A stretch of 64,000 nucleotides of DNA from Chryseobacterium sp. GTDB taxonomy: Bacteria > Bacteroidota > Bacteroidia > Flavobacteriales > Weeksellaceae. The position numbers and the translations under genes are program-made. Shown piece after piece: positions 31,102-60,745 of the stretch. Numbering within the stretch: the stretch's first letter is position 1; each line of letters starts with the position of its first letter. The notes beneath the pieces were generated by a model. It searched no databases. It saw only the letters and a program-made list of their open reading frames with translations, and was not told the DNA's origin. Where the stretch lies: the NCBI GenBank assembly GCA_031277615.1, contig JAITMC010000013.1, positions 62,001-126,000 of the forward strand. Direction: 5' to 3'.

Positions 31102-31177
31102 TGTTAGCATTTAGAGTAAAATAAAAAAGCTTCAGGAAAAATCCAGACAAAGATACACGGCAGGCCATGTATTTTTG

Positions 31178-31250
31178 CTTTTCCCTACGTCGGTGTAAGC
31201 CGTATCAGGTTCAAAGGGACTCTCTCAATTCTTTTCAGAATACCCCTAAA
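31178..31250 (-). promoter_or_regulatory. TPP riboswitch (THI box) of the thiamin salvage operon
   Basis: The minus strand reads TTTAGGGGTATTCTG..., then TTGAGAG, then CCCTTTGAACCTGAT (31218-31204), and closes with CGACGTAGGGAA. These are the conserved P2-P5 elements of the TPP aptamer, including the pyrimidine-sensing TGAGA and the pyrophosphate-sensing helix. It begins a few nucleotides after the promoter and ends about 75 nt before thiM. No obvious terminator hairpin follows, so control may act on translation. Confidence 0.93.
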
Positions 31251-31256
31251 GCGAAA

Positions 31257-31286
31257 CAAATGTATAAAAATTATCAGAGCAGGCAA
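31257..31286 (-). promoter_or_regulatory. promoter of the thi operon
   Basis: Minus strand TTG (31286-31284), 19-nt spacer, TACATTTG (31264-31257). Transcription would start at the first bases of the riboswitch. Confidence 0.75.
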
Positions 31287-36422: not shown

Positions 36423-36463
36423 AAATCAACAAAGCCCTGAATTTCAGGGCTTCGTTGATTTTT
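36423..36463. terminator. bidirectional terminator
   Basis: AAATCAAC-A-AAGCCCTGA with TCAGGGCTT-C-GTTGATTT forms a long stem with one mismatch, A/T tails on both sides, between the convergent lipoprotein and flavin-reductase genes. Confidence 0.85.
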
Positions 36464-37286
36464 ATAGGATACTTAAAAGATTCCAGGCTTCTTCAACCCT
36501 GCTTTCCAGCAATAGTTTCCTTGCATCAGCATGGGTGTTTTCATCAGCATGAAAATTTTCAGCCGGCAATACTTCTATATTGGCCAGCATTCCAAGGTCG
36601 TTTCCTGTAAACACTTTGCTGTATTTGATGGCATCCGGCAGAAGATCAAACCCGATTCCTTTTGTGATAAGGGGTTTCGGCACTTCAAAAAGGCTGTTTT
36701 CATTGCTTCTGGAATACCAGTTGCTTCCTAATCTTGCCACCATATCCAGTTTTTGCTGATCCAGATTTCCCGCTTCATTCAGGTATTCTTCCCTGATATG
36801 GATTTTCTGGACTTCACAGATCACCAGGTTTCCGGCTCCGCCCTGATCTCCCAGAGATTTTACCTCCAGCACTTTACATTCAAAGTTAACCGGGCATTCT
36901 TCAATCAGCTTAGGCTTCACCAGATCGGCATCCCTCATCGTCAGGCCGGATTTTACAAATTCATTTACACCTGTTTCATATTCTGTAGAGGCTAAAGAAA
37001 TTTGCTGCACAATAGGGAAATTAACGGTTCCTATCACCACTTCCGGAACTTCCAGAACATTTTCCAGCGTATGTTTCGTGGTATTGTCACGTACTCTCCT
37101 CGACGGTGAAAAGATCAACACCGGAGGAATCGTACTGAACATATTAAAAAAGCTGAAAGGCGAAAGGTTGATATTTCCCTCCTTATCTACCGTAGATGCC
37201 AGTGCAATAGGGCGTGGCGAAACGGCAGTCTGCATAATGGTCTGCAGCTGAACGGAGGTTATTTCTGAAGGGATTACTGTTTTCAT
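36462..37286 (-). CDS. flavin reductase-like domain protein
   Basis: A 274-aa protein of the FMN-binding split-barrel flavin reductase group: SPRPIALASTVDKEGNINLSPFSFFNMFS and FSPSRR form the flavin-binding region, and HTLENVLEVPEVVIGTVN follows. It lacks membrane segments. It lies downstream of fumarylacetoacetase in the same direction, now separated by the GxxExxY cassette. Before that insertion the two genes would have been about 20 bp apart, so it may belong to the tyrosine-catabolic transcript. Its partner enzyme is unknown. Confidence 0.82.
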   Translation of the reverse strand: MKTVIPSEITSVQLQTIMQTAVSPRPIALASTVDKEGNINLSPFSFFNMFSTIPPVLIFSPSRRVRDNTTKHTLENVLEVPEVVIGTVNFPIVQQISLASTEYETGVNEFVKSGLTMRDADLVKPKLIEECPVNFECKVLEVKSLGDQGGAGNLVICEVQKIHIREEYLNEAGNLDQQKLDMVARLGSNWYSRSNENSLFEVPKPLITKGIGFDLLPDAIKYSKVFTGNDLGMLANIEVLPAENFHADENTHADARKLLLESRVEEAWNLLSIL

Positions 37287-37297
37287 TTTTCTAGGTT

Positions 37298-37779
37298 AAC
37301 CACAAAAGGCACAAAAGTTTAAAGTGAAGTTTTTTATCTTTAAAGATCAAAAAAGCATATCATAATATTTATTTACGAAAGTTTCCTGTCCATCTCGATA
37401 TAAATTTTTCACATTAAAATTAATCAAAATGCCTTTCGGTTTTTTCATTAAATTTATATAATTCAGAATTTTGGGCTTTATGAATATCATTTAATTTTGT
37501 AACAGATTTGATTTCTAGTACAATTTGATCTTCAATTAGGAAATCACAAAAGAAATCACATTTCATTTCTTTACCCTTATAATAAACAGGAACTTTTAAT
37601 TCAGATTTAAAATTAATATTTCTCAGTCTGAACTCTTCTTCTAAACATTTATGATATACACTTTCCAATAAACCGGCACCCAGAATTTTGTGAACTTCTA
37701 TGCAGGTGCCGTTTATCTTATAAGTTAAGTCTGTCAAATATGATTGAGTGATCATAAATCTTTTGTGACTTTTGTGGTT
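37298..37779. mobile_element. 482-bp inverted-repeat cassette carrying a GxxExxY gene
   Basis: The left end AACCACAAAAGGCACAAAAG (37298-37317) and right end CTTTTGTGACTTTTGTGGTT (37760-37779) are inverted repeats matching at 19 of 20 positions. They enclose nothing but the frameshifted GxxExxY gene, and they lie 11 nt from the flavin-reductase start and 9 nt from the fumarylacetoacetase stop. No target-site duplication is evident. A very similar sequence without a gene occurs at 60583-60602, so the ends belong to a repeat family. Mobility is my inference. Confidence 0.5.
37347..37755 (-). pseudogene. GxxExxY (PD-(D/E)XK_3) protein, frameshifted
   Basis: The first 95 codons encode a normal GxxExxY-family N-terminus: GLLESVY at residues 28-34 gives the name motif, and CDFLIEDQIVLEIKS holds Asp71, Glu81 and Lys83 of a PD-(D/E)XK nuclease-like site. 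After KLNDIHKAQ the family C-terminus is found in the next frame (ILNYINLMKKPKGILINFNV, then KNLYRDGQETF), up to a TGA at 37347. One extra A (minus strand) in the run at 37469-37472 explains the shift; the frame as it stands stops at 37420 after 111 residues. The conserved residues remain intact before the break. Sequencing error or programmed slippage is possible. Confidence 0.8.
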
Positions 37780-37788
37780 GAATAAAGA

Positions 37789-39036
37789 CTAAACCGTTGG
37801 AATAATTTTACCGCTTACTTCACCGAAACCTACTCTCACACCGTCTTTCTCAGCCCATGCCCTCATGATGACCGTATCATTGTCTTCAATGAATTTTCTT
37901 TCTTCACCGTTGCTTAATGATAAAGGATTCTGGCCTCTCCATGTAAGTTCCATCATGGATCCGAAAGATTTAGGGTCGTTTCCTGAAATGGTACCGCTGG
38001 CATACATATCACCAACTTCCACGTTACATCCGTTTACGGTATGGTGAGCGAGCTGCTGGGTCATGTTCCAGTACATATGTTTGTAATTGCTTTCGCAGAT
38101 GAGGTTTTCTTCGCCGTTTTCAGGTTGAAGATATACTTCAAGGTTGATGTCATAATTTTTATCGCCTTCAGATTTCAGATATTCCAATACTTCAGGATCC
38201 TGCTTTGGAGAAGCTGTTCTGAATGGCTCCAATGCTTCAAGAGTAACGACCCATGGAGAAATGGATGAGCCGAAGTTTTTCGCAAGGAATGGTCCCAGCG
38301 GAACATATTCCCATGACTGGATGTCTCTTGCCGACCAGTCGTTGAAAACCACCATTCCGAAGATGGCATCTTCTGCATCTTTTGTAGAAATACTTTCACC
38401 CATCTCGGTATTTTTACTGATGATAAAAGCCATTTCCAGTTCAAAATCCAGCTGCTTGCAAGGTCCGAAGACCGGTTTATCAGCATCGGCAGGCTTCATC
38501 TGGCCTTTAGGACGGTTGATTTCCGTTCCCGAAACTACAATAGAAGAGGCTCTTCCGTGGTATCCTACAGGAAGGTGCTTCCAGTTGGGAAGAAGGGCAT
38601 TCGCGGGATCACGGAACATTTTTCCTACGTTTGTTGCGTGTTCAATGCTGCTGTAGAAATCCGTGTAATTCGGGATGTGCACAGGCATCATCATTTTCAC
38701 TTTATCAAGATCGTAGAACGCATCTTCAATTGTTTTCTGGTCTTTAGAAAGGGCAGAGCCTTCCTGAAGAAGTTCCTGAATTCTGATACGTACTGCATTG
38801 GTAACAGGTTTTCCCAGTTCGATAAATTCGTTCAGGGTATAGGCTTCAAACACGTTGTCGTCTAAGCCTTCAATATCTTCAAAATATCCAAGATCATACA
38901 GGGTGGCAAGATCTACGATCTGATCACCGATCCGGGTACAGCATCCGATATATTCTTTGTTAAAAACAGTGACTCCGAAAGGAATATTATGGATAGAAAA
39001 GTCCGAGTTCGGGGAATAGTCTACAAATGATTTCAT
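37789..39036 (-). CDS. fahA: fumarylacetoacetase
   Basis: A 415-aa enzyme of normal length with the small N-terminal SH3-like domain (YSPNSDFSIHNIPFGV...) and the catalytic FAH fold: YTDFYSSIEHATNVGKMFRD, LPVGYHGRASSIVVSGT, the metal-binding Glu in QLDFELEMAF and DWSARDIQSWEYVPLGPFLAKNF. It cleaves fumarylacetoacetate to fumarate and acetoacetate, the last step of tyrosine degradation. It lies in the same strand block as hppD and hmgA. Confidence 0.96.
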   Translation of the reverse strand: MKSFVDYSPNSDFSIHNIPFGVTVFNKEYIGCCTRIGDQIVDLATLYDLGYFEDIEGLDDNVFEAYTLNEFIELGKPVTNAVRIRIQELLQEGSALSKDQKTIEDAFYDLDKVKMMMPVHIPNYTDFYSSIEHATNVGKMFRDPANALLPNWKHLPVGYHGRASSIVVSGTEINRPKGQMKPADADKPVFGPCKQLDFELEMAFIISKNTEMGESISTKDAEDAIFGMVVFNDWSARDIQSWEYVPLGPFLAKNFGSSISPWVVTLEALEPFRTASPKQDPEVLEYLKSEGDKNYDINLEVYLQPENGEENLICESNYKHMYWNMTQQLAHHTVNGCNVEVGDMYASGTISGNDPKSFGSMMELTWRGQNPLSLSNGEERKFIEDNDTVIMRAWAEKDGVRVGFGEVSGKIIPTV

Positions 39037-60120: not shown

Positions 60121-60745
60121 TGTTTATGGTTTTTACAAAAATAGGAATTTAAAATTTACAGCCATCGGACAGAAGATGGAATGATATTACCTCTCATTGC
60201 GGATGTTTTTTAATGCTATGATCGCTATTTTTATCAGGATTTTCTCTGTTTTTTGTTCGCCATGGCGTTTCACTCAGCAAGGAAAGGAATTAACCTTCAG
60301 ACTTAAAGAAAATATTCAACCTTTGCTGAACGAAGTGCCTTTGCGACCGAAAAAAATTATTTAAGAGTTAAAAATCTTTGCCATCGTTGCGGTGAAAAAA
60401 TTATAACCATTTTTCTTGCCTTCTGTATAATTTTCTTAAAATAAAGTGGTTTAAAGGTTTCCCACAGATTCCTCAGATCACACTGATTTTTCTCTCGCTG
60501 GTCTGGCAGATGATGCAGATTTTCTTTTGTGAGCTTCTGTGCGAAATATAATAAACTTTTAAAATAACTAACGTATTAAAATCTTTGTGCCTTTTGTGGT
60601 TTAAAGAGAAATCCTTGCATTTTTCCAACCTGTCAGATAGTAATTTTTAAATAAACAACAGTAATATTGGTAGGCAAAGTTTCCGAATTTTTGTTGCAAA
60701 TTTGTTATACCTTATCTTAATATTAAAAAATTAAAGTAAAAAATT
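60121..60745. repeat. 625-bp intergenic region of dispersed repeat fragments
   Basis: No gene of more than 50 codons with family features is seen. 60457-60530 has TTTCCCACAGATTCCTCAGAT-like text of the 49 and 51 kb family. 60583-60602 (TCTTTGTGCCTTTTGTGGTT) matches 18 of 20 positions of the ends of the GxxExxY cassette, without a gene between. TTTGCTGAACGAAGTGCCTTTGC-like text near 60320 resembles 11.1 kb. Confidence 0.6.

Follow-up and report, generated by a model that had tools for sequence, protein, structure and literature searches.

The cassette between fahA and the flavin-reductase-like gene

In the window, by which we mean the whole stretch of 64,000 nucleotides of Chryseobacterium DNA that was analysed, a short segment bounded by inverted repeats lies between fahA and a flavin-reductase-like gene. 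The features concerned are the following.

36462..37286, minus strand: flavin-reductase-like gene (PF01613), the downstream neighbour
37298..37317, plus strand: right end of the cassette, the inverted copy, AACCACAAAAGGCACAAAAG on the plus strand
37347..37475, minus strand: remaining C-terminal codons in another frame, placed by comparison with relatives, start approximate
37420..37755, minus strand: GxxExxY (PDDEXK_3) ORF of 111 amino acids, apparently frameshifted before the C-terminus
37760..37779, minus strand: left end, upstream of the GxxExxY gene, two CACAAAAG units, AACCACAAAAGTCACAAAAG
37789..39036, minus strand: fahA (fumarylacetoacetase), the upstream neighbour (TIGR01266, 570.8 bits)
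60582..60601, minus strand: related end with no gene, probably bounding a gene-less element on one side

The two arms pair at 19 of 20 positions (alternatively, over 23 nt at 91%), and chance is ruled out as their origin by the lack of any such pair in 100 dinucleotide shuffles of the window. The enclosed ORF scores 104.7 bits against TIGR04256 (cut-off 35) and 102.2 bits against PF13366 (cut-off 22), and its residues D71, E81 and K83 are invariant across 29 aligned relatives. The three genes point in one direction, the cassette being separated from fahA by 9 nt and from the flavin-reductase-like gene by 11 nt. The best-matching relatives of the flavin reductase identify the genus as Chryseobacterium. 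The initial annotation of this DNA, which had described the inverted ends, a GxxExxY gene with these three residues and the two narrow gaps, was correct on each of these points. It was right about the gene family and overlooked that the gene is not whole: the ORF spans only positions 1–89 of the 116 in the TIGR04256 profile, and the residues expected at the C-terminus are found in another frame, which runs to a stop at 37347–37349, so that the window copy is evidently frameshifted near 37470, or misassembled. Intact copies are present in its relatives.

PDDEXK_3 is the sole ORF of at least 80 amino acids in the cassette; among ORFs of this size there is neither a transposase gene between the inverted ends nor a HuH (Y1) enzyme. 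A scan found no terminator within the cassette, and a consensus scan restricted to sigma-70 promoters gave 6 promoter-like sites in 37000–38200, compared with 4.2 in shuffled sequence (sd 2.2). The only Rfam match of the window at gathering score is a TPP riboswitch outside the cassette (31165–31257, minus strand, RF00059, 70.8 bits). Five other stretches yielded one match above gathering score, also outside the element: a Flavo-1 RNA (RF01705, 81.3 bits, L327:462-539) separated from a gene-less array element by about 500 bases. Comparison of the GxxExxY protein with solved structures gave no convincing match (best E 0.98).

Framing of GxxExxY genes in other genomes

GxxExxY genes were detected in 101 of 198 Bacteroidota genomes and in 140 of 148 Chryseobacterium genomes. 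When the 250-base flanks were scored for inverted repeats, a score of at least 14 was reached by 42 of the 46 ORF records from the fahA junction (where two fragments can stand for one locus) and by 22 of 40 chosen loci in other Chryseobacterium genomes, six of which are again the fahA junction. None of the 29 highest-scoring GxxExxY matches reached it, and only 2 of 240 control genes did. Twenty-seven of these 29 matches share one operonic context without ends, where the GxxExxY gene touches the following gene or overlaps it, showing that a GxxExxY gene can live without ends; this may be a settled, domesticated copy. The ends-free context is seen at L001, L085-L096, L098-L100 and L102-L113.

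A sample of 70 Bacteroidota loci was then compared with 81 controls; 30 of the loci had been fetched automatically and 40 chosen, all from among the high-scoring entries of the list and none picked by its flanks. Inverted-repeat scores of at least 14 were found for 32 of the 70 records and 4 of the 81 controls. The gapless score alone is too strict, because differing spacer lengths reduce it to chance values at many loci that are framed by arrays of a heptamer. Two or more inward-facing heptamers (CACAGAG-like, 9–10 nt apart) were present on both sides at 45 of 70 records and 2 of 81 controls; the other 25 records had them on one side (15) or on neither (10). The spacing of heptamers peaks at 9–10 nt. 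With the controls matched for position, by using only genes with intergenic space on both sides (405 control genes in total), heptamers lie on both sides of 33/38 GxxExxY genes and 1/23 other genes in Bacteroidota, and the inverted-repeat score is at least 14 at 15/27 versus 1/50 in the Chryseobacterium sample and at 22/24 versus 0/332 for the fahA loci. The last were scored by inverted repeat only, as the heptamer pattern occurs at 0 of 24 fahA–flavin-reductase cassettes, whose units are CACAAAAG, CACTTAAG or CACATTAG-like. Paired inverted ends are in sum far commoner at GxxExxY genes than at controls, an association that had been anticipated from the window.

GxxExxY genes are rare on plasmids, occurring in 8 of 72,556 records. 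Six of the eight were opened: both Bacteroidota plasmids have arrays on both sides, and in those of Sphingomonas, Treponema, Gemmatirosa and Fusobacteria motif copies occur singly, on one side only or around a gene that is broken. On the Sphingomonas plasmid (L275) the GxxExxY gene lies between fabD and fabG, with two motif copies, on the upstream side only. Viral contigs gave three remote matches, and the two that were opened contain no arrays.

Co-variation of the ends with the protein

At 51 loci in 16 genomes that carry several copies, the left arm pairs better with the right arm of its own locus than with any other right arm compared from that genome in 41 cases, with a mean score of 14.7 for the own arm and 8.3 for the others. 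The motif type was also placed on a tree of 81 proteins, which remained from 150 after removal of 49 whose motif type was unclear and of 20 near-duplicates; 56 have a motif ending in AG and 25 one ending in AT. Only 7 changes of type are needed on this tree; 2000 shuffles averaged 21.5 and never gave fewer than 14. Moreover, five genomes (G181, G244, G269, G315 and G319) contain different motif types with different protein branches, and the link between type and branch is thus not only a matter of host descent. These comparisons indicate that motif type follows protein branch, and that ends and gene form one unit. A motif that is helically phased and follows the branch of the protein is best read as the putative binding site of that protein, and the end type of each branch would be a direct candidate substrate for the corresponding GxxExxY protein.

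The intact A-type copies are under purifying selection: among 18 of them, the pairs with dS between 0.05 and 1.2 (32 of 153) give a median dN/dS of 0.05, and the adjacent flavin-reductase gene gives 0.04.

Turnover at operon junctions

The fahA–flavin-reductase junction was compared in 80 Chryseobacterium relatives. GxxExxY sequence is present in 44 of them (two being clear remnants) and there is none in 36, so the gene is not resident here in every strain, and junctions without the cassette exist. The site is occupied by three cassette subtypes, by other palindromes or by other genes; L078 has a truly empty junction, where the stop of fahA overlaps the start that follows. Over the 81 tips of a tree the state changes 34 times, the shuffled mean being 37.0 with 249 of 2000 shuffles at or below the observed value, and turnover is close to random. 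L046 and L038 differ in state, with 95.9% and 97.5% identity in their two flanking genes.

A second junction was studied in another genus of the same order, which we take to be Flavobacterium; it is flanked by an M24-peptidase gene (methionine-aminopeptidase-like) on one side and by a methyltransferase gene on the other. Among the 30 best-scoring of 121 genomes, which were the ones opened, there are 8 CACAGAG-type cassettes, 7 CACGAAT-type cassettes and 10 empty junctions of 19–27 bp; the remaining five comprise two other palindromes, one remnant-like sequence and two stretches in which an AAA_21 gene and a small ORF adjoin the methyltransferase gene, no peptidase gene being found in either stretch. 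Proteins of the CACAGAG and CACGAAT types are only 33–41% identical to one another, with no exception among the 8 and 7 cassettes. The state changes 15 times on 30 tips (shuffled mean 16.9). Flanking genes alone were used to build both junction trees, and the second tree includes nodes with weak support. When empty and filled junctions were compared by eye no target-site duplication could be defined, the junctions being highly diverged.

Equal fluidity of all spacers was rejected, as 7 of 10 other gene pairs, all co-directional, keep a narrow range of spacer length; the length varies in one divergent and two convergent pairs. In many species palindromes of the families ATGCTTCGAC..AGCATGACA and AACCT(C/T)ATAGG replace the cassette, as in the fahA–flavin-reductase spacers of L006, L014 and L038. 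Defence-like genes are also found at the studied junctions where others hold a cassette (L019:4255-4992, L069:2399-4994, L290:2272-3771 and L304:2278-3769), namely FRG/PDC-S15, GmrSD/HEC-06 and an AAA_21 ATPase accompanied by a small second ORF; heptamer clusters are absent from all four loci.

Exchange can be followed within the spacer itself. The GxxExxY genes of L010 and L013 differ by a third-position distance of 0.09, compared with 0.32 and 0.30 for their neighbours; the left 150 bp of L013 are as in its sister L030, and the remainder is L010-like up to the next gene. The breakpoints of this mosaic lie inside the spacer, as for a horizontal replacement that left the neighbours untouched. 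L025 and L055 provide a second, weaker case of exchange within the cassette. Comparison of relatives shows the cassette to be present, absent or swapped at fixed operon junctions.

Replacement of alleles at one site without their neighbouring genes, with a conversion tract inside the spacer and with intact copies that are strongly conserved beside a minority of broken ones, is what would be expected of a free-standing homing endonuclease that cuts cassette-free alleles of the junction and is copied in by repair, the arrays being a by-product or a boundary. We nevertheless regard this explanation as unlikely, for the sequence that co-varies with the protein sits in the cassette's own ends, two distant protein types occupy one junction of about 20 bp, and the family is found at many unrelated junctions. 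Free-standing homing endonuclease genes are single, intergenic nuclease genes that replace alleles and whose copies decay, and the cassette resembles them in all these respects; it differs by its matched inverted ends and by gene-less derivatives that carry the same ends.

Gene-less elements with the same ends

In the genome to which the window belongs, the end pattern is matched with at most 3 mismatches at 54 places, against 6 for the reversed control. The sequence that had been noticed near 60583–60602 is real; it lies at 60582–60601, with two mismatches to the query arm, and this very 20-base variant is repeated at about 197-bp spacing in contig G000:C23. Many of the 54 places are likewise in direct arrays of about 197 bp. 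Four stretches with such arrays, in which the repeated unit carries the end motif, are L184, L185, L186 and L188 (G000:C20, C23, C20 and C2); the units contain several kinds of heptamer, and many have an inner AAAATC..GATTTT palindrome. The same genome has four GxxExxY genes, of which only the window copy has an inverted-repeat score of at least 14.

An 18-base end dimer occurs 1,601 times in the 148 Chryseobacterium genomes and its reversed control not once. Twenty facing pairs of exact ends were picked by hand from the listed places in Chryseobacterium: two enclose GxxExxY, and the other 18, 129–421 bp long, contain no ORF of at least 70 amino acids. In this sample, end pairs frame GxxExxY or nothing, and the possibility that they surround unrelated genes equally often finds no instance. 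The same ends mostly bound gene-less palindromes, and gene-less copies outnumber gene-bearing ones. The initial proposal of a mobile nuclease cassette has to be amended on this point, as well as for the frameshift in the window copy; it is upheld by the unity of ends and gene, by the specificity of the framing, by the co-variation of end type with protein branch and by the existence of cassette-free junctions. The 140 Chryseobacterium genomes with GxxExxY have a mean of 11.3 end dimers, eight of them carrying none, and the eight genomes without detected GxxExxY have a mean of 2.1 (0 to 9), five of them carrying 1–9. Dimer number rises with the presence of GxxExxY as a trend, not as a strict rule.

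Across Bacteroidota a single CACAGAG-type dimer pattern was counted, outside which the motif variants of the window's own genome fall (0 hits). At least three such dimers are found in 28 of the 101 genomes with GxxExxY and in none of the 97 without (Fisher, 1e-9), an association equalled in 0 of 5000 shuffles within families; 73 of the 101 have fewer than three dimers of the counted pattern. Together with the mixed motif types inside five genomes, the within-family shuffles rule out that the link to the arrays is a species effect only. In the two genomes checked by coordinates most dimers are away from the GxxExxY gene: G315 has 17 of 20 elsewhere, and G319 has 18 of the 20 that are listed (21 in total).

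Y1 transposases were also tested, because REP elements are linked with them. The palindromes might be REP/BIME-like repeats of the ordinary kind that a Y1 (RAYT-like) transposase moves, GxxExxY having settled in them as a passenger. The abundance of gene-less over gene-bearing copies would agree with this, as would the six PF01797 matches in the window's own genome and the tendency, among genomes with GxxExxY, for dimer-rich ones to be those with a Y1 gene (PF01797; 27/86 versus 1/15 without, p 0.06); a Y1 transposase is present in 27 of the 28 dimer-rich genomes. Among genomes that have a Y1 gene, however, 27 of 86 with GxxExxY and 0 of 59 without it reach three dimers (p 1e-7), so that Y1 without GxxExxY is never associated with dimer richness, and the end type of a passenger should not track the branch of its own protein. 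GxxExxY predicts dimer-rich genomes better than Y1 does, and we consider the passenger explanation decidedly improbable; Y1 enzymes could be helpers, or the real movers of gene-less copies. At G201:C33:223092-224361 a GxxExxY gene and a Y1 transposase match are about 600 bp apart.

A proposed two-part element in operon junctions

We lean towards a reading in which the segment in the window is a frameshifted copy of a widespread two-part element that resides in operon junctions, a partnership like that of RAYTs and REPINs with a different enzyme. One part would be the gene for a PD-(D/E)XK-family protein (GxxExxY) of about 125–137 residues, the other a pair of inward-facing arrays of a 7–8 bp motif, about one per helical turn. 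The protein would bind its own motif arrays, unite the two ends, and cut or nick there; such a cut could initiate replacement or transposition, and repair templated by a different copy or allele would spread the cassette and its gene-less derivatives, much as RAYTs are supposed to serve REPINs. Once selection for spread lapses, copies would decay, as in the window. Expression would come from operon read-through. Of 91 distinct GxxExxY proteins, 69 are encoded between co-directional neighbours, 20 between neighbours that disagree and 2 at an edge; 67 of the 69 have the same sense as their neighbours, compared with 105 of 119 ordinary genes (105:14), and this mostly sense orientation fits such read-through.

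A wider claim, which we put forward tentatively as having somewhat less than an even chance of being right, is that GxxExxY genes define a class of mobile element not described before, found widely among Bacteroidota and leaving traces in other phyla. Such an element would consist of a single gene, for a PD-(D/E)XK recombinase that recognises its own motif arrays, phased with the helix; it would travel from one operon junction to another and would also move gene-less palindromes whose arrays match. If this is true, it accounts for a large class of intergenic palindromes, adds a type of recombinase with a small fold like that of restriction enzymes, and reveals how operon junctions get remodelled. 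That GxxExxY is instead an anti-phage nuclease exchanged at permissive junctions, with arrays as regulatory or RNA-processing signals, is very improbable: the same junctions do hold FRG/PDC-S15, GmrSD/HEC-06 and, beside the methyltransferase gene, AAA_21 defence-like genes, but those four loci lack the heptamer cluster, gene-less array elements are abundant, and of two GxxExxY proteins scanned one matched Cas4 weakly and the other matched nothing in PADLOC.

Relation to known systems

The nearest known systems are REPINs and RAYTs (TnpA-REP), described in two papers as inverted extragenic palindromes with many gene-less copies and a single associated enzyme gene, enzyme and repeat co-evolving (PMC3116915, PMC8266576). 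The elements studied here share the inverted palindromes, the gene-less copies, the single enzyme gene and the co-variation of enzyme and repeat, and their repeats occur where the enzyme gene occurs (28/101 versus 0/97 genomes). In contrast, the enzyme here is a PD-(D/E)XK-family protein and not a HuH transposase, its gene lies inside the inverted ends, these ends are phased arrays of a motif, and the gene is found in operons, mostly in sense.

By curated score the window gene is a member of the GxxExxY family (TIGR04256, PF13366 PDDEXK_3), and the names of these models mention no framing arrays and assign no role. The passages of PMC8934634 and PMC12085832 that name GxxExxY do so only incidentally, and the passage of PMC2817692 on Chryseobacterium is not about its repeats. 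No description of GxxExxY mobility or of framing repeats was found in the literature searched, a weak negative since most subscription journals fall outside its scope. A nuclease-family gene that is packaged with matched ends and is gained and lost at fixed sites looks like an undescribed kind of mobile DNA.

Insertion sequences with their MITEs also have inverted ends, gene-bearing and gene-less copies, and nesting. The cassette resembles them in its inverted ends, in the two kinds of copy and in apparent nesting, and differs in that no transposase was found in it and no target-site duplication was established. The nesting was noted by eye in L322 and L326, where a gene-less element of one motif type apparently lies within one of another type, which may mean that the gene-less form moves.
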